Part shown: positions 5,499 to 39,185 of the stretch, in pieces
How positions within the stretch are numbered: position 1 is the first letter of the stretch
Layout of the letters: each line of letters opens with the position of its first letter
Source: Rhododendron vialii
Lineage: Eukaryota > Streptophyta > Magnoliopsida > Ericales > Ericaceae
DNA: 64,000 nucleotides
Direction: 5' to 3'
Assembly (NCBI RefSeq): GCF_030253575.1
Contig: NC_080557.1
Coordinates: 36,692,001-36,756,000, forward strand
Position numbers and translations under genes: made by a program
Notes under the pieces: model-generated
The model's database searches: none
What the model saw: only the letters and a program-made list of their open reading frames with translations
What the model was told of the DNA's origin: nothing

Positions 5499-6065
5499 CT
5501 AAATGAATCCACGGCATTCATTAACCGCTAGCAATCTAGCAATGTCGGCGGCATTTGGTGGCCTTAAATACTCTTCAGAGAAAACTTCATTTACTGCTTT
5601 AACAAAAAAATTTAGGCTTTTGATTGCAGTGCTTGCTCCGATCCTCACATATTCATCCACAGAATCAGCCGGAGCGCCGTAGGCTAGCATCCTGAGTACG
5701 CCGGTAATTTTTTGAAGAGATGACAAGCTAAGCTTTCCGGCACAATTTCTTTTCTGGGCGAAGTATGAGTCATGCTCTACTACCGCATCATGAATGCGAA
5801 GAAAAAGAGAACGACTCATCCGAAACCTCCTTCGAAAAAAGTGGGGAGGAAATACAGGCAATTCTGCAAAATAGTCATCAAAGAGTCTTTTTTGCCCGCC
5901 AAGAGTATCACGATTGATAACAGTGCGACGTCGGCTTAAGCTTGGACTCCCCTCTCCATTCTGTTCTTGATACCTCGCAATTGGTTCTAATAACTCCAAT
6001 TCATTGTCAGAGTCGGAAAAATCCGAGTCGTTCATTATGAGATCACGTAGGCGATTGGGCGCCAT
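5499..6065 (-). pseudogene. Truncated PIF/Harbinger (HARBI1/ALP1-like) transposase
   Basis: The 188-residue open frame matches the N-terminal half of plant HARBI1-like transposases. An acidic start (SDFSDSDNELELLE) is followed by the conserved run FFRRRFRMSRSLFLRI, then LQKITGVLRMLAYG, then DEYVRIGASTAIKSL and a segment ending ADIARLLAVNECRGF. In intact family members, usually about 400 residues, the DDE nuclease domain follows directly. Here the frame stops at once and no DDE-type sequence was seen downstream. The start at 6065 is the family-like MAPN start. It belongs to the Harbinger element 1685-6433. Confidence 0.85.
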
Positions 6066-6436
6066 GGATAGCTGATGAAGGAGCGAATAAATGGATTGAA
6101 CAAGGAAGTAAATCTTTTTCTCAAAGAAGGAAGGAGAGCAAAGGTTGAATGATGGTTAATAAGAAGACAATGACCCGTTTTGTAGGTGGAAATTTTTACC
6201 GTTGGAAGCTTGAAAGAATCATCCCTGGTGTAAATGGTAGAAGTTGCAGCAGCCAGCAAGTTACCGTTTGGAAGGAGGAAACAAAAAAATATATATATGA
6301 AAGAATACATATTTTAATAAGTCATAGGTAAAATAGAGATGGTTTGTGTAGTTCTAACACAAAAATTGCCTAGGTAAAATAGAATTATGGGTTGTTGGGT
6401 AGCTAAATTACCTATTTCTTGGTGTACTTGCTCTAA

Positions 6437-9260: not shown

Positions 9261-9549
9261 ATTATATAATGGGACTTGAGATGTAGAAGTTGTGACGTCA
9301 AGGGCACCTGGAGGGTTGCCCAAGCTCGGGAACCAGTTCATCACGATAAATGGGTCCAGGTCCGGATATAGGAGGTCCTCCTCCTGATTTTGTCCTTTGC
9401 ATAAGCATTGGTTTTTGACTACTGTTGTGTCACTGAAGTCCGATTCATTTGCAGCTTGAGTAGAGCGTTTTGCCAGAAGAAGAATAACGTTTTTAGTGGA
9501 TATACATTGCTGTTGGGTTGCAAGCTTACGATGTGTTGCAAGGCTGCTG

Positions 9550-11219
9550 TGACAAAATTCAAGAAGAAAGAGGATTTCATTCATTGATCATTGTTCTCGA
9601 TACAAGACTCAGAAGAAACACACCCTTTTATAACCCCAAAACTCAAACTCCTATTGGATCTCAAAATGACCTCCTGGATTGCTGAGCTGGACTACACCCG
9701 AACTAATGCCTTAATAGAAAATACAAATGACAAAATGCCACACAATATGAAACTGAAAGAAAACTAACTGCACTTAACCTCCCTTATCTTCTATTCTCTT
9801 TACACCCCCTTGCAAACTCATGGTTGGAGAAGATCCAACCTTGAGTTTGGACTTCAGAAAAACAAAACGAGATACAGGCAACCCTTTCGTAAAAATATTA
9901 GCCACTTGAGCATGTGATGCAATAAAATGAAGCACCAATTTCTTAGCCAATACTTGCTCCCGGATAAAGTGATAATCAATTTCAATGTGCTTGGTACACG
10001 CATGAAAGACGGGATTTGATGCCAAGGCCATGGCTGATCTATTGTCACACCACAGAACATGAGGTGGAGCAATAGAAACCTGCAATTCAGTAAGCAGCTG
10101 CGGGATCCAAACTAAATCTGCAGCTGTTTGGGCCATGGCCCTGTACTCAGCCTCAGTAGAAGAACGAGCAACTGTGGGTTGCTTTTTAGCACTCCATGAA
10201 ACAGGTGTAGCACCAAGAAAAACAACAAAACCAGAGGTTGATCGTCTATCTACGGGATCACCAGCCCAGTCGGCATCAGCATAAGCAGTTAAAGAAAGAG
10301 GACCATCAGTAAAATAAAGACCATGATTGATAGTACCCTTGATATATCGAATCAGACGTTTCACAGCCAGAAAATGACTAAGTTTGGGCTGATGCATGTG
10401 TTGGCAAACCGTATTCACAGCAAAAGCTATGTCCGGCCTAGTTAATGTAAGATACTGCAAGGAGCCCACAAGAGTTCTGAACAAAGACACATTATCAAAA
10501 GGAGGATCAGAAGGATCATAGGGTCCTTTGGTAGAAGTTGGAGAAGCACTAGGCTTACAATCCTCCATTCCTGCTTTAGTCAAGATTTCTGAAACATATT
10601 TGGACTGAGTGAGACACAGACCATGCTGAAAGTATGTCACCTCTAGGCCAAGAAAATAATGCAAGGAACCAAGATCTTTCATCACAAACTTGGAACCAAG
10701 CAAAGAAACTAACTGAGACAGAAAAGGAGAATCACTTCCAGTCAAAATAATATCATCCACATAAACCAAAATGAGAGTGATGGAAGTTGGTTTATGAAGA
10801 ATGAACAAAGAAGAATCTGCCTTGCTGCTTACAAACCCAAGTTCTAACAGATAAGTGGAGAAAACTGAGAACCATGCCCTAGGAGCTTGACGTAACCCAT
10901 AGAGAGCCTTTGTTAGTTTACAAACATAAGTAGGGTGAGCTGGATCCTTGTACCCCTGTGAGCTTGACAAAATTCAAGAAGAAAGAGGATTTCATTCATT
11001 GATCATTGTTCTCGATACAAGACTCAGAAGAAACACACCCTTTTATAACCCCAGAACTCAAACTCCTATTGGATCTCAAAATGACCTCCTGGATTGCTGA
11101 GCTGGACTACACCCGAACTAATGCCTTAACAGAAAATACAAATGACAAAATGCCACACAATATGAAACTGAAAGAAAACTAACTGCACTTAACCTCCCTT
11201 ATCTTCTATTCTCTTTACA
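9550..11219 (-). mobile_element. Young, short Ty1-copia element with 255 bp LTRs, TSD TGCTG
   Basis: The LTRs are 9550-9804 (3', on the minus strand) and 10965-11219 (5'). Both are 255 bp, run TGTAAAGAG to TTTTGTCA on the minus strand, and are flanked by TGCTG at 9545-9549 and 11220-11224. A purine tract AAGGGGG abuts the 3' LTR. The internal part is only about 1.2 kb and encodes a Copia reverse-transcriptase C-terminal part and RNase H, with the words [30 protein letters not shown] and KHIEIDYHFIRE. It is defective. By eye the LTRs differ at 2 positions in 255, which points to an insertion well under a million years old at usual plant rates. Confidence 0.9.
9774..10970 (-). pseudogene. Copia pol remnant (reverse transcriptase part and RNase H)
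   Basis: An open frame of about 398 residues forms the internal part of the Copia element at 9550-11219. It shows the Copia RT words YGLRQAPRAW and YVDDIILTGSD, the linker KRLIRYIKGT, and RNase H with [18 protein letters not shown] and HIEIDYHFIRE. Gag, protease and integrase are not represented. It is described only as a fossil part of that element. Confidence 0.9.
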
Positions 11220-16999: not shown

Positions 17000-18060
17000 A
17001 AAATGACGGAAAGCCCACGAACACACACACAGAAGTTAATCATTTTTTTCTCTCTGGAAGAGAAATGCATCCCAGGTTGTTATTTTTCATGGTTTACTTG
17101 GATATGGAGGAACAGTATAAAGATTTTAAAAAAAAAGAAAAGAGTTCATGTGGCGGAACGTAATTGGTCAATCATACAATGTAGAAGAATACAAAACCTG
17201 TCCTCATCGGATCCACCTTTTAGTATAACCAATTCAGAAACAGAATGTGAAGAAAGATAACTTTGAACATGTGCTATGCTATTTATTTTCATGTTGTGCA
17301 GGGAGATGAAGTCACGGAATTACTCAAAGCAAAAAATGAGACCCAGGGATCAATTTTGCAACCGCAAGTCAAAACTGGGTTAGGATTTAATGTCAGCAAG
17401 GGAAGGGAGAATGGGGACTGGGGAGGATGGGATAATAATCAAGTCACTTCTTTTTCCTTTTCTTTAAAAGAAAGCACCAAAATGGCAATGCTTGAAGCAA
17501 AACATAACACGGTTCAAAAAAAGAAGTAAAACATAACCACCCAAAATGAGGCATGCACTTACAAAGAGTAATAATCATAACCCAGAAATGTCCTTGTTGC
17601 CATCAAATTGAAAGTCTTTTAAAAGCTTTGATGATATCACTGGAAGAACAAGAAACAAACAACTGCAACACTTAAATATCAATTAAAACCCAAAGCACGG
17701 CTAGATACTACCAGGAAAGGACAAAACTAACACAGCACTAAAAAATGCCCGGTAAAAAGCCATAAACTAACAATTTACCTTCCACAGTCAAGGACGAAAG
17801 GCTACAGTTGCAGATCTTCACCCTATCAGATTGGCACTATAATCTCCAAACTGCTACAATGACAAGACATGCAACGCTCTTCTATATTCACGCAGGTTCT
17901 CCGTAATGCCATCAAGGCCCACAGCAGTGAAGAAGTTGATGAAAAAACTGGAATTCCTCGGACTATCTTTCGGGAATATCGTCTCAAAATTGTCCTGCAC
18001 TTTGGGATCAGAAAGACGTTCATTCAACCGGCAAATCCCAAGGTGCTCTGACAATTCCTG
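17000..18060 (-). pseudogene. CWC22 3'-end fragment plus 3' flank, minus-strand copy
   Basis: 18060-17850 on the minus strand reads like the C-terminus of CWC22: LNERLSDPKVQDNFETIFPK, then FFINFFTAVGLDGITENLREY. From 17835 down to about 17000 it continues with the same 3' flanking sequence that follows the other CWC22 copies (AATCTGATAGGGTGAAG... and later blocks). It mirrors 53250-54310 on the plus strand. It begins abruptly just after the E2F module, so it is a fragment produced by duplication and not a gene. Confidence 0.85.
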
Positions 18061-18774
18061 GAAGAAGGTACCGAGGGTTTGTCTTTCCCTTCACAACGAT
18101 TTTCATGTGAACCTAATGCAAGAAGCTCAAATTGACTATTCAGAGAAGAACATAAGAGGCATAATAAAACTCCATTCTGTCGATAGGATCACACAGAGAC
18201 AAGTTCATGCACATAAGAATCTCATAAGGTTTGCACCATCCAGGTTGAATTGGGTACCTCAAAAATAGAACATTTCACGAAAATGTTGCTCATGGTTGGC
18301 TACGTGTTAAAAAGTGCAAAAGTGCGGCAGTAGTTCAAAGTTCTGACCACTCAACATTTCCAAACAAGCACAATGTGCGTTATCTAAACACAACCACATT
18401 GAAAACCACAAGTGGAACGGCACGTCATAAACTCATCCAAGTTGCATAACGGTTTCATAAAATAGTTAATTGTACCCCATGAACTTTTTTTTGTACCCCA
18501 TACACTCGAACCTAGTACTAGTTCAATGGTCTGAGTTGATACAAATTCTTCATAATCCAGGAAAAAAATATACCTGCAACGATTAAAAACATGTTTCTTT
18601 TACTTGCCTCGTCTTTACTCAGCAGCAGCAGCCAAAGACAGGGTAAACAAAAAAAGAAATCACAAAAAACTAGATCCTAGGTTGTATACATAATAATCTG
18701 ATGGCAAGAACTGGAGGTTGACGAGTTCTTATTCAATACTTCCTCCTGAAGAAATCAAAATAGAGTTAGGTGGT

Positions 18775-19006
18775 GTTCCAACTAAAGGAAAAGAAAGTTT
18801 TGGAAAAAGAAAGGTAATTTCAAGCTTAAAAATCATGTGTTTACATAAATAATTTTTCTACCAATATGGATCTTATTTGATAGATTTCATTGAAATTTTT
18901 CATACGGTGCAAGAAAAATCAAAAAATTATTTTTCATTTTCATTATATTTGAGTTTGAAAATTGAAGAAAAAGAACTTTTAAAAAAAGAACCTTAGTTGG
19001 AACACT
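18775..19006. mobile_element. AT-rich MITE with TTCCAACTAA ends
   Basis: Inverted ends: GGTGTTCCAACTAAAGG at the left and CCTTAGTTGGAACAC at the right. The body is AT-rich and symmetric. It is absent from the other E2F modules and resembles the element near 39186-39425 in its ends and interior words. Confidence 0.6.
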
Positions 19007-19008
19007 AA

Positions 19009-19295
19009 GGCTTTGTTCTGACAAAAAATCCCATTTGGCTTATTGGCAATTCCCAAAAAAGCCATTTCCCTGACTCCCCCGTCTGACATACACACCAGAC
19101 CCGACCCCACCCCAGTGTTCCAAAAATACCCCTTGTTGGGAAGCCAGAACAAGACAAATATCCAGGGCAATTTGGTAATTTCACGCCTCTGTCGTCCAGC
19201 TTTTTAAGGTTGGCTTTTTTTAGTCAGATATTTGATGGCTTTTTTGGCTTATTTCCGGCGGGAAAGCCAGCTTATTTTTTTGGCCGAACAGGCCC
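19009..19295. mobile_element. Tourist-like MITE, TSD TAA
   Basis: Ends GGCTTTGTTCTGACAAAAAA and TTTTTTTGGCCGAACAGGCCC are inverted repeats. TAA flanks both sides (19006-19008 and 19296-19298). It inserted right next to the preceding MITE. Confidence 0.75.
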
Positions 19296-19639
19296 TAACT
19301 TTCAGAAACTTTTACTCCCAATTTCAAGGTCTTTTTGATACATAAAGATTGAGATTTTGAGAACCTTTAACTCCTTAAGCATATATACTGATTCTTCACT
19401 TTTATGGAAAAAACCAGAAAATTGATCAACCCAACGAGTAACTATAGAGAAGTGAAAGAAATGAAAAAGAGCAAACACCAACACTTCCTAAAATGTTCAC
19501 AATGTCGTAAATGCGCTGTCTAACACCTGCCTCTTTGATTTGATTCAATAAACACAATAACTAAAAAAAAAATACAGGGGTTAAAGGACACGAAATAAAG
19601 AGGGAACCAGAATATAGACATAGATCCAGACCTAATCAG

Positions 19640-20383
19640 TTTGCAGCATCGTCCAATCCAATGGAGTGCACACCATCTCAATCCTACAACTTCAGAAAGC
19701 TACCGCCCCCCCACCCCCCCCCCCCCGAAAAAAAGAAAGAAAGAAGTGATACTAATCAACCAAAAGACGCCAGGAACTAAACAAAAACAACAGTTGAAAA
19801 ATACTAAATATCAATTACAACAATAAAGCACAACATACATATCCACATGGTTAAGCAAAATTTCTTGTCCAAAACTACCCAATGGTCACCATACTCACAT
19901 AATTTTACATATCTATCTAATTATCACTAAGGGGAACCCAAAATTGAAGCTGGCTCACACCCCACTCTAAAAGGATATAGATGTCTTGATCCCATTTCTC
20001 ATAATGTTTTCATTTCCAGGGACATAAAATTGCAATGCTTCAAGCAAAAGATTACCAGCAAAAATGAGGATTGCACTAACAAAGAATACTAATCATAACC
20101 AAGAAATGATCAGGTCGTCATCAAATTTAAAGTCATATTCAAAAGCTTTGATGCTATCACTGTTAGAACAAGAAAGAAACAACTGCAACACTTGAATCGA
20201 TGATAAAACCCAAAGCACAGCTACCTACTACCAGTGAAGGACAAACCCAACCCTGCACTACAAAGTGCCTAATAAAAGGCCATTGAAAAGCTGTAAACAA
20301 ACAAACTAACAATCTGACTTCCACAGTAAAGGCTACAGTTGCAGAGCTTCACCCTATCAGATTGGCCCCATATTGACAAATAG
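19640..20383 (-). other. 3' flank of CWC22 copy 1 (3'UTR-like) with C-run
   Basis: Minus-strand sequence just after the CWC22 copy 1 stop codon. It matches 50603-51365 on the plus strand after CWC22 copy 2, block for block. A C-run at 19707-19727 (G-run on the coding strand) is matched by the G-run at about 51263-51281. No polyadenylation site could be fixed with confidence. Confidence 0.6.
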
Positions 20384-22136
20384 CTACATGATAAGGCATG
20401 GAGCGTTGCTCTTCATGTATTCTCGCATGCTCTCCGTAATGCCACCAAGGCCCACAGCAGTGAAGAAGTTGATGGAAAATCTGGAATTCCTCAGACTATC
20501 CTTGGGAAAGATCGACTCAAAATAGTCCTGCATTGTGGGGTCAGAAAGACGTTCATTCAGCAGGTGAATCCCAAGTTGCTCTGACAATTCTTGGAAGAGA
20601 ATCTTGACGAAAATACGGGAAGATGAGGTAGTGTCCTCTTCAGTCAACCGTATATAAGCTAAAATGTGCCAAGGAAGAGCATCCGTGCCAAGTAAATGGG
20701 CAAAAAACTTGGCCACATTGCGTAGCTTATTAGTCTCGAGGCGATGAATCATAGAGTACTGTTGCACAAAGCATTTCTCAAAATTTTCCTGGTGGATCGT
20801 GTTGATCATGCAGAACCGCTGCCCCAGAAGGCCATAATACCGCAGATACGTTCTCTCTTGACTGCAGCATTCCAAAAGCATGATGCACAGTTCCATCTCT
20901 TGACCAGGCTCCAGTTTAATTTGCAATAGTGTGTGGCCAGCTTCCTCAAAATCAACACTAGACATAATTGTTAGATAAATTGTCCTCCGAAGGTTTACCA
21001 GATTTGTCTCCGTCTCGTCCTTTATTTTCATCTGCTCCTCGTCCTCTTCAATATCAGAGTCTTCACCATCCTCATCTCCTGAGCCTGCTACCGAATCTGC
21101 TTCATCTACAGACTTGTCACCAAGTATTGTCTTTTTCAGTTGCTCGTAGTTTTCCTCGTTTGCCACAGCTTCGGCCTCCAGTTTGAAGACATCCAAAGCA
21201 TTCTCGGGGTCCAATTCTTCCTCCTGTAGAGAGATTTCATGAATTAGCTGATCATCTTGCTCAACAAGGTCCAATTCTTTACGAACAGCTGGGTACCCCT
21301 GAAATCTGGCTTTTCTTATCGCGAGTAAACCCTCGATCAGAAACTGAACTCTTTTTCTAATTTCTCCTTCGTGAAGAATCCCACGAAAACGCTCAAATAT
21401 TGCATGCAAGCCACGGGAGCAAAGATCTCGGAGAATTGAGCCACATTCGGTGACGAAACCCACTGCTACCTCCACACTGTCATCAGTAGGTTTGTCCAAT
21501 AAAAGGGTGAGCAGCTCCAAAGCCACAAGCTCATGAAGCACTTGCTGGTTCACAAGATGCGCCACGAATTTAACAGATGGTAATAGTTGGGGCTTGTCAT
21601 TGCGTTTGTAAGCTCGCTTGAGCTGCAAAATTAACCTCCTCGACAAAAGATGACCCACTTGTGGGAACTTAGTATTGACCACGGCAACCAAAGCAGCAAA
21701 GACGTCTGTGAAACCAGGGGAGGCCATCTGAGACTTGATACAAGCTCGACAAAACGGACCTCTACCTCGAACTAAATTCTCCGCAAAAAGTTCAGGAATT
21801 ATGTTCTTAATATTGGTTGCATTCAATTTATTGACCAGCCCATTAATACTCTTCCTTAGAGCATCCCAAGACAATCTCTGGTACTCAACAGAGCTCTTGT
21901 CGGCCTCCACATCTTTCAAAATTCGGGAAATAAGCCCTAAGAGTAGCAGCTCCTTGAAACGACACAGTCCTCGTACTGGTTTGTTTCGTATCACCATCAT
22001 CGCTGCTTTCACTACTACTTCTGCTCCTCTTACATCTATCATCATCAACAACAACAACTACCTCTTTTCTATCTCGTTTAACCCTTATTCTCTCTACCCT
22101 ACCGAAACGCTCCTCAATGAATTTGGAACTAGCCAT
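20384..22136 (-). pseudogene. CWC22-like pre-mRNA-splicing factor, copy 1, N-terminal frameshift
   Basis: Intronless. Residues match the MIF4G and MA3 domains of CWC22, the spliceosomal protein that brings eIF4A3 to pre-mRNA for exon-junction-complex assembly. Family words include WDALRKSINGLVNK, PTDDSVEVAVGFVTECG, LRRTIYLTIMSSVDFEEAGH and LETNKLRNVAKFFAHLLGTD. The ATG equivalent to copy 2 is at 22136. About 17 bp present in copy 2 is missing near 21945, which shifts the frame, so a protein from that ATG ends after 83 residues. The rest stays open to 20384 (a 557-residue frame from 22057). It differs from copy 2 at roughly 4% of residues, several at conserved positions. Two MITEs disturb its promoter and 5'UTR. 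A downstream start could still give a MIF4G-MA3 protein. Confidence 0.85.
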
Positions 22137-22230
22137 GAAAAATACTGACAAAGACGACAGAGAGACACCGCGAGAAGACAGAGAGAGAGAGAGAGACCTC
22201 TTGTTGCCGCAGGTCTTTCTTCTCGATTCA

Positions 22231-22601
22231 GGGCCCGTCCGGATAAATAAGCCACGGAGGCTTATTTTTTGTCCTTATTCAAATTTTTTTCGTATTACTT
22301 GGCTTATTGTCATTTTTTTGGGGGACTATTGCATCCTCACGACAAGAGGAATCTAAAAAGTAAAAAATTTTGACCGAAATTCAAATTTTTTTGAATAAAG
22401 ACGAAAAAAGTGGCTTATTAATTTTTTTTCATCTTTATTCAAAAAAAATTGAATTTCGGTCAAATATTTTTACTTTTTAGATTCCTCTTGTCGTGAGGAT
22501 GCAATAATCCCCAAAAAAATGACAATAAGCCAAGTGATATGAAAAAAAATTGAATAAAGACAAAAAATAAGTCAAAATGGCTTATTTATCCGAACACCCC
22601 C
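22231..22601. mobile_element. Tourist-like foldback MITE in the CWC22 copy 1 5'UTR
   Basis: 371 bp with long inverted arms: GGATAAATAAGCCA at the left, TGGCTTATTTATCC at the right, and a central match around ATTCCTCTTGTCGTGAGGAT. It is flanked by TCA (22228-22230) and TTA (22602-22604). The uninterrupted homologous site in the CCT8 copy reads GATTTAGGGC in this orientation, which supports an original TTA target with one later change. It separates the 5'UTR of CWC22 copy 1 from its promoter. Confidence 0.85.
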
Positions 22602-22674
22602 TTAGGGCTTCGGAACTGAACTTCATACACCTACTAATATTACTATTACTGTCAATGATATACATTATATATAA

Positions 22675-22987
22675 GGCGCTGTTATTCGCAGCCCTCTATT
22701 TTCTCTCATAACCCGTTAAAAATTTTCAATTATACTCGACAGTTCGTTATCGAAATTGAGATATATTTTCAGCATTCAATTACCGAAATATAATATTTTT
22801 TTCAACAGATATTTACCGAAAATGTATGTTCGGCAGTTGTTTACCGAAAGTTGAACATATTTTCAACATGTAGTTACCGAAATATAATCTTGTTTTCAAC
22901 AGCAATTTACCGAAATGTTATTTATGATTTTCAACAACCATTTACCAAAATGTAATGGACTATGAGAGAAAATAAAGGGTTGCGCCC
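22675..22987. mobile_element. Mutator-like MITE inserted at the TATA box of CWC22 copy 1
   Basis: The ends GGCGC...CTATTTTCTCTCATA and TATGAGAGAAAATAAAGGG...GCGCC are inverted repeats. The flanks TATATATAA (22666-22674) and TATATATAG (22988-22996) agree at 8 of 9 bases, which fits a 9 bp Mutator-type duplication. The interior repeats the word TTACCGAAAT. The homologous site in the CCT8 and CWC22 copy 2 promoters is an undisturbed TATATA box. Confidence 0.75.
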
Positions 22988-23415
22988 TATATATAGATGC
23001 TCCTAACCCTAAGTCCTAATCCTATTAGGAGTATAACTTTAGCCTTTTCGTCCCTAGGCTATTGCCTTGTTTTTTTCCTTCATCCTTCAAGTATCAATTC
23101 AATCTAGTCCACCCTTCAACTATTTAATTTTAGTCTATTTTTTCAAATAGTACTTGTTTTAGTAGTACTAATGTGTGATTAAACTAATTTTTCGTGTAGA
23201 TACTTTTCTTTGCACAATACAAGAAATTTTTCTTTGCGCAATACATGAGATTAATTTATAAAAATAAAGTTTTTGAATGGGTCCCACAAATAAGAGTATG
23301 GAGATTTAAAAAAGAAGAAGAAGATAAAGGGTATGAAGAGACTGACCATTCTCATTTACATGAAATGGATTAGGTGGTTCTTTAAGAAAATCCAATAGTT
23401 GGATCGGCATATCAA

Positions 23416-23486
23416 AGGCGGTGGGGGCATGGATTGCAGAGATGGCGGTGGGGGCATGGATTGCAGAGATGGCGGTGGGGGCATAG
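23416..23486. repeat. 27 bp tandem repeat in the left palindrome arm
   Basis: The unit GGCGGTGGGGGCATGGATTG plus CAGAGAT occurs about two and a half times. The homologous places in the right arm (about 24640) and before CWC22 copy 2 (about 48220) hold fewer units. Confidence 0.8.
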
Positions 23487-23593
23487 ATTTCAAATCTTTA
23501 CAAGCTTTTAATTAAGGAAAGTTTATTGTAAAATGGTTTCACAACAAATTCTATTTTAGTTCTTTGAGTATCAATTGTACAGATTGTAACACT

Positions 23594-23770
23594 ATGGCGA
23601 AGAACGGAGAAGAACGTCCGTTTGAAAGTATGGCGAAGAACGACGACTATCAACAGGTGAGACCGTTGGTAAACGAAGAAGGCCGACGACGAAATGGTAG
23701 GCGACTTAGTGCTTTTCACGAACTGTCTAGGGCTTTTCACGCTTTTCATGAACAGTATCGTTCGTTCTGA
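23594..23770 (+). CDS. Small ORF inside the palindrome arm, unproven
   Basis: The frame from the ATG at 23594 encodes 58 residues starting MAKNGEERP and ending AFHEQYRSF. The inverted arm holds the same frame from its second ATG (MAKNDDYQQ...EQYRSF, minus strand near 24342-24480), 44 residues. Between the arms this shared part has about five residue changes and about three silent ones, so there is no sign of purifying selection. No known domain was seen. It may be chance. Confidence 0.2.
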   Translation: MAKNGEERPFESMAKNDDYQQVRPLVNEEGRRRNGRRLSAFHELSRAFHAFHEQYRSF

Positions 23771-24117
23771 AAAATGTGGGGGGAAGGGGAATCCCATTTG
23801 TATTATAGATTGTATTATAGATTGTGAGAAATTTCTGGGGAAGGAAAATTTCAAATCAATGTTTTCGAAATTGATGGAAAAACGGGGCAAGCGGGAGAAT
23901 TTTTCATAAGTTCACTATAATACTTTCCAAACCCACTAAAGTCCACTTCTAAATTCTAAAACCCACTAAGTCCACTAACCTATTATTAATGATATAATAA
24001 CCCTGTCTAGTCTAATATATCCCTGTTTTTAAAAAAGTTTTTGCCCCGTTTTTCCATCAATTTCGAAAACATTGATTTGAAATTTTCCTTCCCCAGAAAT
24101 TTCTCACAATTCAGTAC

Positions 24118-24296
24118 AAAACTAGTGCTAGCCCGTGCCTACGGCACTATGCATTCCGGTTGGAAGGGAATGGTGTGTGATTTAGGTGAAAATCATAGGC
24201 ATTTAACCGAGAAGTGAGAGGATGCACTTCAGCCTTTGGATCGAATGAATCTAAGCCGTTCCAACAACTTGTCCCCACACTCTTCTATTTTATTCA
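24118..24296. mobile_element. Insert of about 165 bp between 13 bp direct repeats (Helitron- or SINE-like)
   Basis: It is flanked on both sides by ATTCAGTACAAAA. On the minus strand the insert ends GTGCCGTAGGCACGGGCTAG followed by CACTAG and T, a hairpin plus CTAG end of the kind seen at Helitron 3' ends. The 13 bp flanking repeats fit target-primed insertion better. The family is therefore open. It is absent from the left arm, where a different 12-13 bp duplication (TTGTATTATAGA twice) sits at the same point. Confidence 0.5.
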
Positions 24297-24954
24297 GTAC
24301 AAAATGGGATTCCCCCTCCCCCCCTTCCCTCCACATTTTTCAGAACGAACGATATTGTTCGAGAAAAGCGTGAAAAGCCCTAGACGGTTCGTGAAAAGCA
24401 CTAAGTCGCCTACCATTTCGTCGTTGGCCTTCTTCATTCACCAACGATCTCGCCTGTTGATAGTCGTCGTTCTTCGCCATAGTTTCAGACGGATGTTCTT
24501 CTCCGTTCGTCGCCATTCTTCGCCATAGTGTTACAATCTGTACAATTGATACTCAAGGAACTAAAATAGAATTTGTTGTGAAACCATTTTACAATAAACT
24601 TCCCTTAATTAAAAGCTTGTAAAGATTTGAAATCCATGCCCCCACCGCCTTTGATATGCTCAGCTTTTCCCAATCCAACTATTGGATTTTCTTAAAGAAC
24701 CACCTAATTCATTTCATGCAAAGGAGAATGGTCAGTCTTTTCGTACCCTTTATCTTCTTCTTCTTCTTTTAAATCTCCATACTCTTATTTGTGGGACCCA
24801 TTCAAAAACTTTATTTGTACAAATTAATCTCATGTATTGCGCAAAGAAAAATCTCATGTATTGTGCAAAGAAAAGTATCTACATGGAAAATTAGTTTAAT
24901 CGGACATTAGTACAACTACAACAAGTACTATTTGAAAAAATAGACTAAAATTAA

Positions 24955-25086
24955 GGGAAAATGACAGCTAATGACGTGTTTTGATAATTAATACCCGCCA
25001 AGGACATTTTCAGTATTAACAAATGTTTTTAGCTTGTCCTTGGCGGGTATTAATTATCAAAACACGTCCTGGCCCGTCATTTTCCC
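24955..25086. mobile_element. Mutator-like foldback MITE, 9 bp TSD TAAAATTAA
   Basis: 132 bp. The ends GGGAAAATGAC and GTCATTTTCCC and the inner blocks TTTTGATAATTAATACCCGCC and its complement pair along the length. TAAAATTAA flanks both sides (24946-24954 and 25087-25095). The empty site is preserved in the copy at about 48553. It lies upstream of the CCT8 TATA box. Confidence 0.9.
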
Positions 25087-25240
25087 TAAAATTAAATAGT
25101 TGAGGGGCGGACTAGATTGAATTGATACTTGAAGGATGAAGGAAAAAAACAAGGCAATAGCATAGGGACGAAAAGGCTAAAGTTATACTCCTAATAGCCT
25201 AATAGGATTAGGACTTAGGGTCAGGAGTAAGGGTTACGAG

Positions 25241-25248
25241 TATATAAA
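25241..25248 (+). promoter_or_regulatory. Putative TATA box of CCT8
   Basis: TATATAAA lies about 170 bp before the CCT8 ATG (25414). The downstream block and CT-rich leader are shared with CWC22 copy 2, whose TATATATAAT is at about 48683. Position and conservation between copies support it; no transcript start is known. Confidence 0.5.
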
Positions 25249-25413
25249 ATGTATATCATTGACAGTAGTAGTAATATTATTAGGTGTATGAAGTTCAGTT
25301 CCGAAGCCCTAAATCGAGAAGAAAGAGCTGCGGCAACAAGGTCTCTCTCTCCTCTCATAGACGAAGACGAGCGAGCATACTGAAGAAGAGTAAAGAAGAG
25401 AGTTCGGAAGAAA

Positions 25414-28400
25414 ATGGTGTACGGAATGCAACCCTATGGGATACAATCAATGCTAAAAGAAGGGCACAAGCACCTGTCTGGACTCGACGAGGCTGTGGTA
25501 AAAAACATAGATGCCTGCAAACAGCTCTCAACCATCACCAGAACTTCTCTCGGTCCCAACGGTTTGTTTCTCTCTCCCTCACTCTCTCGCCTTCTTTGAG
25601 ATCTCATATGCTACGTGATTGATTGCTTCTTGCCGCCACTGTGTGAGATTTTTTACTTGCATATTATATATGTGAATTTAGAGTTTGAGATAATAAACAT
25701 CAGTACGGGGAAGATTGCTGGCTTCCAAGTGTTTCGAGGTTTATAGCATGTCAGCTGTATTATACAAAACTATAAGACACAGTTGTTGTATTCGTAGATC
25801 AGTAGCTGGTGCTTGGTTTTCTTGCTTACCGGAGTTTCTTATTTCCTTTTTTTAGAATGCTAGGTCCTGCATTTGAATTACTTTATGGTTCCCTTGTCTA
25901 TAAACTACTGACCATTCCAGTCGCTGCAAAATTGCTACTTTCATGTCTTAAAATATATGTTGAAGTAAAACTTGCATAGATGCATTAATTCATTGAATAA
26001 CTTGAAGGAAAGGACATTCTCAAATGTTATGCGCTATATATGTTGAAGTAAAACTTGCATAGATGCATTATTTCATTGAATAACTTGAAGGAAAGGACAT
26101 TCTCAAATGTTATGCACAGAGTAGGCATGATTCTTTTTCTTTGGAGTTAAGCGTTGTTGTGCATTGTTGCTGTTTATTCTGGGTATTCTGCTCTTATAGA
26201 TGTAGTTTAAACTTCCGTTGTTTGCTTAGAGAATTGTCAAGTTTTTCCATCAGTTCTGTTTGGTTGTTAATGTAGTTTAATATTCAGGTATGAACAAGAT
26301 GGTTATCAATCATTTGGACAAACTTTTTGTCACAAATGATGCTGCCACTATTGTGAATGAGCTCGAGGTTCAACATCCTGCGGCCAAGATTTTGGTTTTG
26401 GCAGGCAAGGCTCAACAAGAAGAGATAGGCGATGGAGCAAACTTGACAGTTTCTTTTGCTGGGGAGCTCCTTCAAAATGCCGAGGAGCTTATAAGGATGG
26501 GACTGCACCCAAGTGAGATCATCATAGGCTATACGAAAGCGATTAATAAGGTTGGTCATTCTTTTATTGTGTGACTGGGATCACTTCGATCTCTCGCTGT
26601 ACAAAACTACTAGTGCTTGCACTATCTAATTGTTTTCCCCCATTTGTTCGCAGACCATTGAAATCTTGGATGAATTGGTCGAGAAAGGTTCTGAAAAGAT
26701 GGATGTGAGGATTAAGGAGGAAGTTATTAAACGAATGAAAGCTGCTGTTGCTAGCAAGCAGTTTGGGCAGGAGGATATCTTGTGTTCTCTTATTGCTGAT
26801 GTATTTATTTCCTGGTGTTCCTCTTATTAATTTTGGCAATAGCATGTGGTGTGGTTGGTATTTGACAATTATGATATTGTTGCATAATAGGCGTGCATTC
26901 AAGTATGCCCCAAGAACCCTGCAAACTTTAATGTGGACAACGTCCGGGTTGCAAAGCTTTTAGGTGGAGGCTTGCATAATTGCACCATAGTTCGAGGTAT
27001 GGTTCTAAAGACTGATGCTGTTGGATCCATAAAGCGAGTGGAGAAGGCTAAGGTTAGCAAAAATGTATCCGTTATTTTGTTCTTCGTTTTCAACTATTTC
27101 CGTTCTCAACCTCTGATGTTGTACTGCTGGACAGAGATTGCAATTTTCTTCTCTTATTTGATCCTGACTTTGTTTCTGTTTCTCTTGGCTGTCATTTGAT
27201 TTTTGTGTTGGAAGTACAACCAATTTCTTGTAGTTTGATGCTTGATTGCTTGGAATAGGATAGGACTTAGCATCTGTCTTTCTTTGACTGCTATTCATAA
27301 GTTTCAGTTTTTTGGGTGCCATTAACCTTTATTTGCATGACACTTTCTGTTTCGGATATGGTACTAGAACAATATATATGGCAGAATGGAATTTTGCCAT
27401 TACTCATGTGGGGAATAAGTTGCAAGAGAATCAAGCTCTAATGATTTACTAGGCAGAGTGATTTTTGCTAGTACTCATTGTTGGTTGTAACATTCAAAGT
27501 ATTGGTCGTGAATCAAAGTGCCTGTACTTGTGGTTACAAGAATGATAATGGTGTGATGCTTGATGTGAATTTAGACTCCTATATTTGCAGTTTGGACGAT
27601 TGAGATACTGAATGGAGGTATGAAGAGTATGAGAGGATTGAGAAAAGTTAGAAGGCAATGAGCCTTGAAACTCACTTTAGTCACCAAATACATGCAATAT
27701 CTATCTAGGGAGGGACTGAATGCTTGTAGATATGACGTCCTTGAAGGTGTAAAAAGCTAAACAAAATTTCAGAGTTAAATAAGCAGTTCAATAATCATAT
27801 CATTTATGTCTTTGATATCAGTTACTCCACTAAGATTTGTATAAGGTTGTAAGCGTATTCAATAAGAAGTTCTACATGATTCAAGTTTTAATATTTGTGT
27901 TGAACCCCTGATGGAGTAAACTGTCATCGATAAACATTTTGCTCTTGAGATCGCAGTAAGTTTTGCTTTTGTCTGCAATTAGATTTTAAAAGCTCATCGT
28001 GAAGTGAGTTTTCTTGGTTATCAACAGAGTTCTTTTGCTTTTTTGATTGACCACGTGAATAACTGCATAAGGATAGTTTTTTGGCTATAAAGATGTGTCT
28101 GATGTTTTCAACTCCACGTGTACATGCTTGAGATGCTAAGTTGCTCTTGCTCCAGCTAATGCACAACCTATTATTCTCTTTTGTAGGTTGCTGTGTTCGC
28201 TGGTGGTGTTGATACATCTGCAACTGAAACAAAAGGAACAGTGCTTATTCATAGTGCTGAGCAGGTATACTCTAGAGGCAGTTGTTTATGAGATGGCTCC
28301 TTCTCTGCATCCTACCCTGTCCTTTTCTATACTTAGTTAACTTTCTTTGGAATTGTCAATGCATTCTTGGATTCATTTTTTTTTTTTTTCTTTTGGATTA

Positions 28401-31400
28401 TGGTTTTGGACTTATCGATGCATTTATCTGTTTCAGAAATCTCTTGGATTGTATCTATATTTTCTTTATGCTAAATTTTCCTGGCAAACTCTTCTTGCCA
28501 TCTGCGTATTTTCCAGCTAGAAAATTATTCGAAAACTGAAGAAGCCAAAGTTGAGGAGCTTGTCAAAGCAGTTGCTGAGTCAGGTGCCAAGGTTATTGTT
28601 AGTGGAGGAGCAGTTGGAGAGATGGCACTACACTTTTGTGAGCGTTACAGGTACAGTGATTCTCACCTTTTCTTTTGTTTTTTATTTGATTGTTATTTTA
28701 TTTGCACTCTCATTTCTGTGGGTTTGAACAATTTGTAACAATTGTCAATGCTCTATTTGACGTTATCATTTTGCAAGGGTTATTATATTTAAAAATGGTC
28801 AAAGCTCCATAATGCTCCATTTGACATTCTTGTTTTGCTGCTGTTATTACATTTAACTATTAAGTATCTTATCCCATTCATTGTATGAATATGGTAATAG
28901 CCAAGGCAAGCGGCAAGCGGCAAGGGGTTTTTACGTTTAATATTGGACACCTAAGGAGGTACACCGCAACTTTGAGGATTTAGTCGTCCTATAATTAATT
29001 AATCCAGAGAACTAAATGCATTGCAACCCCCTTAATTGAGCAAGGGTGGCTGTGTTTACCCTCCAACAAAGAGCAATCCCAATTTTCCCTTATGAAGCAA
29101 CGACTGGGATTAATATGCAGATGCTCTTTTAACTCGGGATTTTTTCTTCCTCTTTCATTGGTAATCTGACCGAATATCCATTAAATAAGCTTCTATTGAT
29201 GCATCAGCTGAAACGAGCTATTACTCTCTTTTCCTCTCTTCTCACTTTTTGCATGTATGATCTTTTGGTGTGTGCGTCTTGGGGTGACATAGTTAATCTG
29301 AAAGTACCAGCCACGCTTCTCTTTTCCTCTCTTCTCACTTTTTGCATGTATGATCTTTTGGTGTGTTTGTCTTTGGGTGACACAGATAATCTGAAAGTAC
29401 CAGCCACGCTTTTCTTTCTTCGTGTAGATTTCTTCCTTGTGAATTATGTTTGTATTGTGTAAGGCTCTCTCATGGTGCTTAATAATCTGTTGCAATTCAA
29501 ATTTATTCACAGGCTAATGGTCTTAAAAATCAGCTCGAAGTTTGAACTGCGACGATTTTGCCGTACAACTGGTGCCGTTGCTATTGTAAGCATACTTGTG
29601 TATTAGCATAAGTAGCAGTTCAATAAGTGGGAAAAAGATTTTCATCCTTGTGTTATTAACTTTTGAAACAGTTGAAGCTTGGCAGGCCAAACCCCGATGA
29701 TTTGGGGTACGTTGATTCAGTGTCCGTGGAGGAAATTGGTGGTGTTAGGGTATGGCAAACACCTTTCTTTTGTCCTAAGATCATAATTTGTGGTTGTGAT
29801 TTGTTTATTTTTTCTCTAGGTTCTTTGTTTTGTTTCTATCTTTCTTTCTTCTTCTCATGCAATATGATGTTTGTCTGTAACATGTAATAGGTCACTGTTG
29901 TGAGAAATGAAGAAGGTGGAAACTCTGTTTCAACCGTGGTTCTACGAGGAAGTACTGATAGTATATTGGATGATCTTGAAAGAGCAGTTGATGATGGTGT
30001 GAATACATACAAGGTAGTTCTGTAGAACATGACAGTTCCATAATTTTTGTTAGTAAGGTCATGCTTTACTGTAGTCTTTGGATTCTATTGGAAACTTCAG
30101 TGAGTTTTGTCGCATTGATGCTTGAAAAATAGGTGTTTCAGTAGTTTCTAATGGATGCTGAGTAGCAGTCCGGATGATGCTTTAAACTTTTCTGTGCCAG
30201 GCAATGTGCAGGGACAGCCGTATGGTGCCTGGAGCAGCAGCCACAGAAATTGAGTTAGCTAGAAAACTGAAGGAGTTCTCTTTCAAGGAAACAGGGTACG
30301 CTAGAAAGTCAGAATTCTATTTTGACCACTTTTTGGTGAAATTGTGCTTGGAGCAACCAACAGGGCTTTGTCAAACTCTTTCTTTGCAGATTGGACCAGT
30401 ATGCTATTGCAAAATTCGCTGAGAGCTTTGAGATGATACCTAAAACCTTGGCTGAGAATGCTGGTCTCAATGCTATGGAAATAATATCTTCATTGTATGC
30501 GGAGCATGCATCTGGAAACAGCAAGGTGGGCATAGACTTGGAGGAAGGTGTATGCAAGGATGTTTCTACTATGAATATTTGGGACCTCCATGTCACCAAG
30601 TAAGCTATTTCTTACTTTTTAAAGCTGTTATCTTCTTGCCTGTCTTGATGTGTTAGGATTTCTATGTTTGGTGTAAACTACAGTAACCTCCACTGAGGTT
30701 TAAGTAGAATAACAGACACCATGCTTATGTACCAAAATTGAATTGGCTGCCAATATCAGAATTTGTATAGCCTAGTGGAGTCTACAAATTGCACTTAAGC
30801 CCCTTATTTTGGAACATTTTAATAGAGCATCAAAAGTGAACTAAACTCCATTCAATGAACCATCTCTCTGTTGCAGAAACATCTCTCGAGCCATCTCCAC
30901 CATCTACCCAGGCCATCAACACTTCCTCCTCTCTGCAATCAACCAAACACCACATTACACTTACTTTCTACCAACTTCAAATTCCCCGTCTTTGTATTTG
31001 CATTCTCCCTCTGTTCGTGAATCCATACCCTTCCACCACACTAGCTCTCTCTGTTGCTCTTTCCTTCAATTGAACTGGATTAAAGTGGACGGTCAATTGG
31101 CGGCTGGTGGATAGCCAGATAGACCTTTGTGTAATATGAGAGAGAGGGTTTCCTTTGGGGGGGGGGGGGGGGGGGGGGAGGGAACTCATGCTGTCGGCAT
31201 TTTGACCTCTTACAATCCTGCATCAAGTTGGATTCCATATGAAACTTTCTCTAAAGCCACTTTTGAGCAGAGGCCATACTGTTGAGGATTTACTACAATT
31301 GAGAGTACAGAAGCAGATAAATGTAAAGACTGAGTTGGAAGGCTTGTATATCAGTTGGCAATTAGTGCTTTGAGTACAGGATGAACAAGATTTTCTGAAA

Positions 31401-33834: not shown

Positions 33835-36000
33835 TTTCTGCATGAGCTGGGCAAGTGATTCTCTAATGACTGTGCTCGTACCCAACAAGCTGAGTTTTTG
33901 TTGCCTTTGCATGCCCACGACTTGGGCCTGAAAAACTTTTGCTTTGCAGTGAAGTTTTGTCCATTTTGATTTTGTTTCTTAGGTTACCGTTGATGGATGA
34001 TGTAAAATTCCTTTCTTTTATGGCTGCGGTGCATAACTTGGACCATTTGAGTTGAGAGTTGTTCCCACATTACACTCTTTCAAATTAATGATTTTCTCAC
34101 TTCTTGTTTGGGATGGTAGTTTTAAAAGTCCGAATGATGTGTTTGCTAAATTAACGTTGTCACCCTACTTGGTGAATTTCCATTACTAGAAAGCTGAGAT
34201 ATGCTGTGGTAAATTTTCGAATGGTTTAAGATACGGCAGTCAGAGATGTGAATTGGGTCTCCTTTTAAGAGTTGCTTTGCCCTTTGACGGGCTTTAAATT
34301 TGAGCATAGTAGTAGGCTTTTTATGGTACCACTGTTGAACTTAGGAGTAGAGGTCTAGGTATGAAGTACCTGCTGGATTGAAAGCTGCAATAAATCCTAC
34401 TCCCTCCGTTCCTAAATAAGTGTCCGGCGGGCAAAACTAGGCTTTACAAAGCATGCATATTTTTTATTAAAAAAAATAATTTTTTTTCACAATCTAATAG
34501 AACTCATTGCTATCTATTGATTTGTGAAAAAAATTAATTTTTTTAACGAAACAAATGTATTTTTTTGAAGGTTTAGTTTTGCGTGCCGGACATTTATTTA
34601 GGGACGGAGGGGGTAATAATTATCTTCTACCATACCGAGTAAAATTGAATGCAGGAACACTAATATAGAGTGCAACAGGAATCTGGAATTATCGAGCACG
34701 AGGCATGACGTTCATAATGACAGTCAATTTTTTTTGGTGTTGTTGGTCTTGTATGTGTGGTGCACGAAGCACTTAGAACTGTTGAATATTGGTGATGCGT
34801 TTGTTGACCTTTGTGTCAACAATGAAGAGAGCAGATATTGAGCTAGCCGTAAATGTCAAAGCAGATGGTCAGCGCAGCAATGGCCAGCCATTTGCCTGCC
34901 ACTTTGGGGCTTGGCAATTATTGGTTGCAATTCGTTATGTGGGTTTTTGTTGCGTCCTCTGCTTAGGCACAGGCAATTTTACCTGTGCTCCATTTTATTG
35001 ATGGTGTAATACTTCACTCTTGGAAAAGCACAAAAATCAGGGCGTGAGGGACATTCAGCCGGCCGGTAGGCATGGAAGCTGGAGTTTGTTAAGTGGTGAA
35101 TTGAGGATAGTTTTCGTAAGAACATGCTCCTGTTAGAGTGTGTGTAGCAGGCTAGCCAAATAAGCATTTTAACCACAAAAGACATCCTCCAGCAGCCTCA
35201 AAGAGACTTGGTGATCGGGCTTTGCCCCTAAGGTGTTTGGACCTCGGTCCTCTGGATTTTTTCTTTTCATCCAACCCTTGGTTCCCCAACTGGTTGTACC
35301 CATTGTCAAGTTTTCTAAATAAAACTTTTATTGCCTATAGAAAAAGAAAGAGAGACTTGGGAAAATACCTTCCATTATAGTGTCTTGTCAAATCTGCCGA
35401 TTTCTCTCCCCATTACTATACTTTGACCTTTTCCCCCCACATTATCTCCTCATTTCTCTCTTCCTGTTCTCTATAGTTCTTTCAAGTTCGTGCTCAATTT
35501 TCTCTCGCCCTTTTGGTGTTTGTTTTGACAACTTGTCTACTACCAAAAAAAGGTATGAACCTAACTTCGTCTCAATTTGTTTGTAAATCTCTTATAAAGG
35601 AATCACCGTATAACAAATTCATAGTTGAAATTTTAGGATTAAAACGAGCAAAGAAACAACATTGAACTCTATTAGGAATAAAACCCTTCAAACGAGAGAT
35701 TGAGCATCGAGGTCAGAGAAGAGAAATTTTCTTATGTAACCCTTTGCTTAAATATTTGTTATTTTAGTGAGGATTTATCTACCATTTGACTCATGGCAAG
35801 TCCCACTGATTTCGCCACTGTGAGCCTGTGGCATTGGTTTAAATGGCAAAAATATAGGAAGAAGGTTATCATATAAAACACGTTTTATTTATTTTTTTAT
35901 GCAAGTGGAAAGTCTTAGTGCACTTGAAGAGTCCAACGAACTTCCTACAAATGCTTCTGGGTTTGATATATATATATATATAGAGTCTCCTTCTCCTAAG
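33835..36000. other. CCT8 3' side and intergenic DNA
   Basis: Beyond the CCT8 stop I see no coding gene. One Stowaway-like MITE lies at 34400-34613. The rest is AT-rich, with short chance frames. Confidence 0.5.
34400..34613. mobile_element. Stowaway-like (Tc1/mariner) MITE, TSD TA
   Basis: Ends CTCCCTCCGTTCCTAAATAA and TTATTTAGGGACGGAGGGGG are the classic Stowaway-type inverted termini, and TA flanks both sides. The interior is AT-rich with further pairing (TTTATTAAAAAAAATAATTT and complement). Confidence 0.85.
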
Positions 36001-36355
36001 GACCATCTTAACTTAATAAAATAAGGACCTCCCTTTCCCGATAGAATTTCAATGATCCAAGCCGCTCAATGTGTTCAAAACGTGATTTTAAGGGTATCCG
36101 CGAGAAATCAGCAAAAAAAAATAACCGGAAAGGCTTCATCCGAGCAGTTTTTGTTTGTTTTTTTATCGAACGGTTCAAATAAAAACTGCTCGGATGAAGC
36201 CCTTCCCGATTATTTTTTTTGCTGATTCCTCGCAGGCACTCTTAAAATCACGTTCTGAACACATTGAGCGGCTCGGATCATCGAAATTCGAACGGAAAAT
36301 GGGAGGAATGGAAAGATCCTTATTTTAACTAAAATAAAGACCTTCTTATTTGAAA
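36000..36355. mobile_element. Foldback MITE
   Basis: The arms pair around 36160. AACTGCTCGGATGAAGCC and GGCTTCATCCGAGCAGTT are complementary, as are CCGCTCAATGTGTTC and GAACACATTGAGCGG, and the outer AAGGACC and CCTT blocks. The central loop is GTTTGTTTTTTTATCGAACG. No clear TSD was fixed. A (TA)n run at 36374-36398 follows. Confidence 0.75.
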
Positions 36356-36363
36356 ATGACTGT

Positions 36364-36394
<31 letters not shown>

Positions 36395-36399
36395 ATATA

Positions 36400-38520
36400 T
36401 ATGCAAGTGGAAAATTTTCAGTGGAAGATTTGACCACTAAAATAAAGCTGGGTGCGTATGATGTGTTACTGTTTGGAATTGTTTTCATTTTCCAAAGAAA
36501 ACACAATAGAAGGTTCACAATCACACACGGTGTATGTTTTTCTGCTAACACGGTTCTCGAAATGGCGTCTTCAAACCCGTGAGTTGCTTCCAGGGAAAAA
36601 ATTCCAAATTCATTTTTGGAAATAGTTTGCCAACAAGTTTGTCGATTCAAGGAAACAAAAAAACAGAAAATGAGAATATTACCAAACAGGCGTACGTATG
36701 GTAATATCGTGTTAATTAGTGTTACAGCTAAAAGCAGAAGACGATTGATTAGAAGTTCCAAACTGCGTATGTAATTCTTTTCTTTGAGTCCAAATAAGTC
36801 TTATATGAATGAGCTGCACCCACTTTTCTTTGTGCATGTTCCCCATCTTTGCTTCTCTAGCTTTTAAGTAAATTCTGAGAGGATACGATCGAACTTGAGA
36901 AATGCAGGTTTTAGCAGTAATTCAGAGGGCATGATTGAAGTTAAAACACATTTTGACTCTCCAACAAGATCTCTTAATTAAGCTCAGAGCTTGTGTTCTC
37001 TAACTCTAAATCTTCACCCCTTCGCCTGTTGGGTTCCGTCGTAAGTCATTTGACAGTGAGCACACCAGATGCAACTTATGCACTGGGATTGGAAAGATCA
37101 AATTTCCACAGCATACCGCCCTTTTTGTCAAATTTCAGCATTATTCCTCCAGAATCTGGCCGGACGAAGGATTTCGATTTGTGGAATCCTTTTACGGTCG
37201 AGGAACTTTTGTCCACTTGGGGTGCAGGGAAGCAGAACAATGACGTTGATACAAAAAGCAGGGAAAGAGAAGCAGATCCAGAGGGCGAAGAGGACGACAA
37301 CAATAAGCAATTGTTTGACAGAAAAAAATGAGCAGAGTTTACACCAGTGCGCCGCGGGACTTCATAATCCTTGACAGGGTAAGTGATTTTACCTATAGAA
37401 ACCAAAAACTCTTCTACTTCCCTCTGCAGTCATATACTTGCAAAGTTGCAATGGCAAAGCAAATGTAGAAGAAAATACTAGTATATTTCAATAAACTAAC
37501 TCTTCAAACAGCGGTAAGGTATTTCTGTTTGTTTTGTACGCTGTAAGCACCACACAGATTTGACTCCGTGGGATGTCTGATCGGTTGATCCTTACTCTTA
37601 CTGATGCTTTGGATCGAAACAATCAATACCACTCTTGTTAACTTAATACTCCTAGAACATATCAAACTAACCAAAATTTGGTTGTTGCCGTCACTTTGGA
37701 TATTATTTCTTTGAAGCAATCGCCAATCGGATCTTTAACACACACACACCTTTGTTTTCCTCTCGTTTTCTATACTTGCATGTGTCAAACGGGGTAGAAG
37801 AAACTCAGTTGTGGTACAAAGAGAAGGGTTCATTCAATTAATTGTACATGTTCAGTCCAGGCTCAGCTCATGAATGGTACGGCAAATATGCCTGCATATG
37901 CGTTGGACAATCAGCCCTGCTCGAGCCCAAGGATGGGACTAGGGGAGTCTAGTGGCGGCGCGACCGCCACAACAAAAATTTTAGAAAATGCAATTATTAT
38001 GTGTAAAAAAAAAATTTATGCCCAACTTATATAGTCTCGCCACCACAAAATTTTTTTAGTATACATTTCGCCACTGTTAGGGTAAAATCCTAATTCCGTC
38101 CTTGCTCGTGCCTATAATATTGGGTCCTAAAACTGTATGGAGAGGTACACAACATTTGCACAATCCAAATCTCTAAACACAGGACACAATTGGAGATGAG
38201 GAACATTCAGAAAGGAGAAATTTTTGTAGGGTTATGAGTGGAGAGAGAAATGAGACTAATAATTGAAAGTAAGGTAATGATTGGAGAGAAATGAAAATAA
38301 TGATTGGAGATAGTTGTGAATAATGATTGGAAATATGAGTAATAAGTATTTTTTTAGTTGAGAATTTTTTTTCAAAAATCAATCAAAACAAAGCATTGGC
38401 TATCGGTAAAAATTGTTAAGTTTGGTTATGGAATAGATGAAATTTGGTTATTTGCTAAAAAAACTTGTAATTTTGCTTATTACAATGTGAGGAATTTTTT
38501 GACCATTATTGTTAAATTTT
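36400..38520. other. Stretch without a recognised gene
   Basis: Open frames at 36210-36761 (minus) and 36993-37331 (plus) have no recognisable domain. The second contains an acidic, low-complexity tail (EADPEGEEDDNN) and could be a scrap of an exon. I would not call either a gene. Confidence 0.4.
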
Positions 38521-38524
38521 CTTA

Positions 38525-39018
38525 GGGTAAACTATAGTTAACCCCCTCTAACTAAGCTTTGCGTGCACTTTGCCTCCTATAACTTTTTTTTTGGCACTCA
38601 ACCCCCTCTAACTAACTGAAAATCAAACGGTCATAACTTCTTCGTTCGAAATCGAAAACATGCAAATTATATATCGATTTCGAGGTCTTGAAGTCAGCTT
38701 TCTAATGACACCAAAATCACATCACGATTCAAAGCACACAGAAAGTTATGATCAAAATGGTCTTTCTGTCTACCAGCCCTTACTCTTTTGATCATAATTT
38801 TCTGTGTGCTTTGAATCGTGATGTGATTTTGGTGTCATTAGAAAGCTGACTTCAAGAACTCGAAATCGATATATAATTTGCATGTTTTCGATTTCGAACG
38901 AAGAAGTTATGACCGTTTGATTTTCAGTTAGTTGGAGGGAGTTGAGTGCCAAAAAAAAAATTATAGGAGGCAAAGTGCATGCAAGGCTTAGTTAGAGGAG
39001 GTTAACTATAGTTTACCC
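38525..39018. mobile_element. Long-armed foldback MITE (about 490 bp)
   Basis: The whole element is two inverted arms of about 235 bp. Ends are GGGTAAACTATAGTTAACC and GGTTAACTATAGTTTACCC. Inner pairs include GCAAATTATATATCGATTTC and its complement. The arms meet near 38765. A matching TSD was not found. Confidence 0.85.
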
Positions 39019-39185
39019 AAAGAAATTTGTAGAAAAGAGCAAGCGAGATTGAATTGTCTCTAGAAGGATTTGACAGAAAAAGCACGTGGGCCACGTGATA
39101 TTCCCATTGGGGATTCTATAACCACTCTCATTCTCTCTTTGATCAGCAGCGGTTTCCGAATTTTCAGTGGGTAATGCGTGGCTAA

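Follow-up and report, generated by a model that had tools for sequence, protein, structure and literature searches.

An inverted promoter and leader duplication between CCT8 and a CWC22 copy in a flowering-plant genomic window

Genes in the window

The window (by which we mean the whole stretch of DNA that was analyzed, 64,000 bases in length) has a GC content of 38.9% and 0 ambiguous bases. It contains genes for CCT theta and for CWC22-like proteins, pieces of a beta-galactosidase gene, and a reverse transcriptase of the RVT_2 family, a gene content that suggests the DNA is from a flowering plant. A search of positions 17000–55000 against Rfam at gathering thresholds gave 0 matches. The CCT theta gene, CCT8, is located on the plus strand at 25414–30600 in seven exon pieces that cover parts of model positions 1 to 496 of 531. 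For all seven pieces TIGR02346 (CCT theta) was the best match (note that single pieces cannot reach a cut-off set for the whole protein), and the reading frame is open in each of those examined. The exon limits are approximate and the pieces exclude gaps and the 3′ end of the gene.

Two copies of CWC22 are relevant here. Copy B (20387–22136, minus strand; copy 1 of the first-pass annotation) is positioned head to head with CCT8, and copy C (48839–50602, plus strand) is an open frame of 587 amino acids with MIF4G and MA3 domains. Membership of the CWC22 family is indicated by the order of the Pfam domains, MIF4G and then MA3, and by the match of copy C to the solved chain 5mqf_T (phmmer E value of 6.4e-193). 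Both copies end where the match to this 908-residue chain reaches approximately residue 652. Scans with copy C gave 14 pattern matches in prokaryote genomes and 4 in viral contigs, none of which was confirmed as a relative.

Inverted copies of a promoter region upstream of CWC22 copy B and CCT8

The DNA between the two head-to-head genes is a palindrome. One arm, P1 (22181–23890, minus strand), comprises the promoter and leader of copy B, and the other, P3 (24041–25356, plus strand), comprises those of CCT8; five collinear inverted blocks pair the two. The first-pass annotation had described inverted copies of approximately 1 kb upstream of the two genes and, consistent with this description, the aligned arms are identical at 759 of 796 compared bases (95.4%, or 37 differences), a count that excludes a minisatellite, a pyrimidine run, indels flanking the TATA box, and the leader. 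Identity is complete in the innermost block (70/70), and is 182/196 in the next block and 507/530 across five outer blocks. By BLAST, with gaps counted, the identity of the five blocks that pair P1 with P3 ranges from 86.9 to 100%. The top block scores 833 bits, whereas the highest score obtained when the CCT8 arm was dinucleotide-shuffled 200 times was 32.8 bits. Each arm is approximately 1 kb in length once its inserts (314 and 368 bp on the CWC22 side, 133 and 170 bp on the CCT8 side) and one flank repeat per insert have been removed. A central spacer is also present as described, although it measures 150 bp (23891–24040) rather than 145 bp, and no second copy of it was found in the 64-kb window. 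The palindrome is thus confirmed as a real feature, with opposite arms of high identity around a spacer. (Coordinates of the spacer, and of the inserts described below, are given without strand.)

The homology between P1 and P3 crosses a TATA-like element in each arm (22657–22674 on the minus strand in P1; 25241–25257 on the plus strand in P3; both putative promoter elements) and continues into a CT-rich leader. It ends inside the CT tract, approximately 45 bp before the ATG of copy B (22136, minus strand) and, on the CCT8 side, approximately 57 bp before the ATG of CCT8 (25414, plus strand), in agreement with the earlier description of a homology that stops before either start codon. No displaced CCT8 promoter was found between P3 and the start of CCT8, which would mean that the original was deleted, that P3 is the original, or that the spacer side once served CCT8.

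A third copy upstream of CWC22 copy C

A further copy of the promoter and leader, P2 (48107–48838, plus strand), was overlooked in the first-pass annotation. P2 occurs singly upstream of CWC22 copy C, has a putative TATA region at 48684–48700 (plus strand), and is homologous to both P1 and P3 down through the leader. Its homology to P1 and its homology to P3 end at one and the same base, 48107. Self-comparison of the window revealed no mirror arm at P2 and no second stretch of CCT8. P2 is about 23 kb from the palindrome, and copy C is about 27 kb from copy B.

Each arm of the palindrome carries two inserts. In P1, M1 (22674–22987, 314 bp) has terminal inverted repeats with TATATATA on both sides and is located at the TATA box, and M2 (22234–22601, 368 bp) is a near-perfect foldback in the predicted leader of copy B. 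In P3, M3 (24954–25086, 133 bp) is a foldback with TAAAATTA on both sides, and M4 (24122–24291, 170 bp) is flanked on both sides by the 13-bp ATTCAGTACAAAA. All four look like small transposable elements. Each is absent from the other two promoter copies (M1 and M2 from P2 and P3), and because no insert is common to both arms, the inserts are most simply explained as later than the inverted duplication.

CWC22 copies B and C are 95% alike only across 19621–22234 and 48750–51378. Elsewhere in the window, CWC22 fragments at 17884–18063 and 53255–53458 have 80% and 72% protein identity, respectively, to copy C, which identifies the region as an older cluster of CWC22 duplications. The confinement of the 95% likeness to the two intervals above suggests that the likeness of copies B and C is newer than this cluster or was renewed by conversion. 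Older repeats, with 73–85% identity, are found around the CWC22 fragments at 6998–9261, 17027–19919, and 51383–54299; the first of these matches DNA that adjoins the fragments, not CWC22 coding sequence.

CWC22 copy B is probably decaying

Relative to copy C, copy B has a 17-bp deletion near position 21930 (approximately codon 67) that shifts the reading frame, such that translation from its first start codon would cover only 83 codons. From the following ATG, at 22045, the frame runs through the entire MIF4G–MA3 core and would give 553 amino acids, and residual protein or function of copy B is therefore possible. Comparison of the ungapped codons of copies B and C shows 28 amino-acid differences, and a dN/dS of 0.47 suggests relaxed constraint in B, in C, or in both. 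When the 28 differences were polarised by eye with the use of four different solved chains (8xi2, 5mqf, 9esh, and 9l5s), copy B departed from the outgroup residue at nine (positions 108, 131, 169, 190, 275, 302, 324, 406, and 495) and copy C at two (245 and 445), with 17 uninformative. (Note that position 190 is the most weakly polarised, the residue of copy C being found in one of the four chains and that of copy B in none.) For nine changes against two, a binomial probability computed by hand is approximately 0.03 one-sided and 0.07 two-sided.

The predicted leader of copy B, taken from just after the TATA box, contains four ATGs, three of them inside M2; the predicted leaders of copy C and CCT8 contain 0 and 1, respectively. 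The predicted folding energy is −269 kcal/mol for the 525 nt of the copy B leader, −30 kcal/mol for the 138 nt of that of copy C, and −23 kcal/mol for the 142 nt of that of CCT8, these being unshuffled values for leaders that differ in length. The M2 foldback itself would fold if copy B were transcribed. In the predicted CCT8 leader there is an upstream frame of 31 codons (25288–25383, with its ATG at 25288), where P2 has the codon TTG.

The 17-bp deletion, the presence of M1 at the TATA box and of M2 in the leader, and the assignment of 9 of the 11 polarisable changes to copy B together suggest that copy B is probably decaying. The view that the palindrome separates two housekeeping genes hence sits poorly with the state of this copy, with some doubt left by the downstream ATG.

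Divergence of the three promoter copies

Pairwise differences between the three promoters amount to 4.3–6.0% of 530 ungapped sites, with 23 differences between P1 and P3, 27 between P3 and P2, and 32 between P1 and P2. (These counts are from an anchored alignment from which the minisatellite, the pyrimidine run, the indels flanking the TATA box, and the leader were dropped.) Of 41 private changes, 14 are in P1, 9 in P3, and 18 in P2, and an equal-rate star tree is not rejected by these counts (p = 0.23). In 10,000 bootstraps, P1 and P3 were the closest pair 7107 times, P3 and P2 2089 times, and P1 and P2 155 times, with 649 ties. The synonymous divergence between CWC22 copies B and C, 0.046, is in a range similar to that of the promoters.

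The extent of the promoter divergence suggests that the three copies arose near each other in time, and its similarity to the synonymous divergence suggests that the CWC22 duplication (or a conversion that renewed it) was approximately contemporary with the inverted duplication. A CCT8 source followed by CWC22 duplication predicts that P1 and P2 should be the closest pair; that they are the most diverged argues against this order of events. The divergence between P1 and P2 thus leans towards CWC22 as the source, without settling the donor or the order, and the lean is not decisive because P3 may be slow-evolving or the arms may have converted each other.

Interpretation of the locus

The reading that we prefer, with a probability of roughly 0.68, is that an inverted duplication within the CWC22 duplication cluster became fused to CCT8 at a (TC)n tract and left separate one-way promoters. 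According to this reading, a TATA-type promoter with a CT-rich leader exists in three local copies, with P2 preceding copy C, P1 preceding copy B, and P3 forming the promoter and leader of CCT8. The alignment shows that P1 and P3 are an inverted duplication of approximately 1 kb of promoter and leader around the 150-bp spacer, which is why the 5′ region of CCT8 is homologous to that of one of the CWC22 copies. The duplication would have been joined to CCT8's own leader within the (TC)n tract, possibly through microhomology-mediated repair or template switching. Judging from its anatomy, each arm would function as a separate one-way promoter and drive the gene on its outer side, and later insertions would have damaged the CWC22-B side, leaving the CCT8 arm as probably the important one today.

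With respect to the source of the promoter, we lean modestly towards the CWC22 lineage. A fuller version of events, in which a single step deprived CCT8 of its own promoter and leader, so that the gene is now expressed from a CWC22-derived promoter joined to it at the CT tract, the donor having decayed and copy C being open, is put forward only tentatively. The first-pass annotation had proposed that one gene acquired the promoter of the other by inverted duplication; an inverted duplication of promoter and leader is indeed what we find. CCT8 may possibly have been the original owner, an inverted duplicate of its promoter and leader having arisen next to a CWC22 copy before that copy, with part of the arm, was duplicated to produce copy C. 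Private changes are least numerous in P3 (9 of 41), whose branch is hence the shortest, as would fit a constrained essential gene, and CCT null mutants are reported to be lethal in plants. Moreover, the ending of both CWC22 copies near residue 652 of 908 in 5mqf_T may mean that they are shortened, derived copies that needed a promoter. Against this stands the distance between P1 and P2, which should be the closest pair but differ at 32 of 530 sites and were closest in only 155 of 10,000 bootstraps, although a slow P3 or conversion between the arms could mask their kinship, and the equal-rate star is not rejected.

Other readings concern the nature of the palindrome itself. As a rule, transcripts start approximately 30 bp beyond a TATA box. 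Both arms are directional and contain a TATA box of their own (at approximately 22670 and 25245), and the predicted starts are consequently approximately 2.6 kb apart (approximately 2.0 kb without the inserts); the start codons are 3.3 kb apart. By the standard quoted in PMC6274729, a bidirectional promoter serves divergent genes less than 1 kb apart, and CWC22 copy B and CCT8 are spaced more widely than this. Gene pairs with 1–1.5 kb between them are also mentioned there for plants, the two genes here are head to head with homologous upstream DNA, and copy B could start at its downstream ATG. The claim of the first-pass annotation that the palindrome forms one bidirectional promoter, here taken to coordinate two active genes, nevertheless appears improbable, given two directional copies with distant predicted starts, the occurrence of the arm singly at CWC22 copy C, and the damage to copy B. 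The locus cautions that homologous DNA upstream of two head-to-head genes is not in itself a bidirectional promoter. It is more improbable still that a foldback transposon inserted between the genes and that the arms are its long terminal inverted repeats. Other long foldbacks do occur in the window (for example those at 45290–47000 and 38515–39028, which are 94% and 92% self-complementary, respectively), but the homology between P1 and P2 extends into the CWC22 coding region, and a 20-base piece of the arm is found three times in the window, every time upstream of a gene start. In addition, no target-site duplication was found flanking the arms, the best shared word outside them being 7 bp, a length that was reached in 413 of 1000 shuffles; such a repeat could have decayed. 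Palindromes can in general be mis-assembled. However, 37 of the 796 compared bases are different in the two arms, and four inserts are specific to one arm or the other; we therefore rejected an assembly artefact as scarcely credible.

The palindrome had also been thought capable of giving hairpin transcripts. Both predicted starts are at the outer ends of the arms and point outward, which places the arms outside both predicted transcripts; hairpin RNA from CWC22 copy B and CCT8 is thus not expected, and on the strength of these predicted starts we ruled it out.

Relation to known systems

The inverted duplication model of plant microRNA origin reportedly involves inverted repeats of gene-derived DNA. 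The palindrome resembles what that model describes in consisting of inverted repeats from gene-derived DNA, and differs from it in that P1 and P3 lie ahead of the two predicted starts and are not expected to be part of one RNA. In Drosophila, unique DNA is present as kilobase inverted duplications at the breakpoints of inversions 2h and 2q, where new genes have in some cases been formed from the duplicated parts; PMC3355041 attributes these duplications to staggered single-strand breaks and end joining. The present locus is like these in having a kilobase inverted duplication of unique DNA adjoining genes. Whereas the 2h and 2q copies described there flank an inverted chromosome segment, the CCT8/CWC22 arms are 150 bp apart; moreover, unlike the Drosophila copies, they consist of a promoter and leader, with a third copy approximately 23 kb away. 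The arrangement also shares with plant bidirectional promoters the presence of divergent genes on either side of a common intergenic region. Plant examples from PMC6274729, PMC2772851, and PMC4222868 are single intergenic regions (351, 411, and 1429 bp), unlike the two mirror copies of a directional promoter, one per end, that are found here.

Inverted duplications and plant bidirectional promoters are already known, and the CWC22/CCT8 case was not met among the matches listed. Literature searches for CWC22 together with CCT8 gave one paper, on stem-cell therapy for mental disorders, and nothing on this gene pair; those that combined inverted duplication with DNA breaks or with promoters described as bidirectional, new, or duplicated gave nothing on the pair among the matches listed (for example, the best 20 of 37 and the best 15 of 30); and those for CWC22 duplication in plants gave nothing on this case among the best 15 of 19 matches. 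If the fuller version of events is true, CCT8 and CWC22 copy C run under homologous promoters. The locus illustrates how a local inverted duplication can supply a new promoter and leader with the coding region left untouched. Given the divergence of 4–6% between the three copies, together with the breakpoint in the CT tract, comparison with a small number of related genomes could test which event came first.

Other repeats and genes

A stretch of 1.7 kb at 45290–47000 is self-complementary end to end, with inner repeats of approximately 125–175 bp. This foldback is more compact than the CWC22/CCT8 palindrome and is located between pieces that are similar to positions 1–879 of the window. Further foldbacks, 75–92% self-complementary, are found at 38515–39028, 35966–36379, 34390–34623, 47581–47974, and 333–439, and the number of such stretches suggests that the region is rich in elements of this kind. 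Beta-galactosidase pieces are located at 42976–43644 (minus strand), with a galactose-binding domain above the cut-off and a lectin domain below it. An open frame of 218 amino acids at 5502–6155 (minus strand) had no matches in Pfam or NCBIfam; we take it to resemble plant Harbinger-type nuclease-like proteins. Finally, at 9550–11219, direct repeats of 255 bp with 99% identity surround an open frame that encodes a reverse transcriptase domain of the RVT_2 family, which we presume is probably a young LTR retrotransposon of the Copia type.
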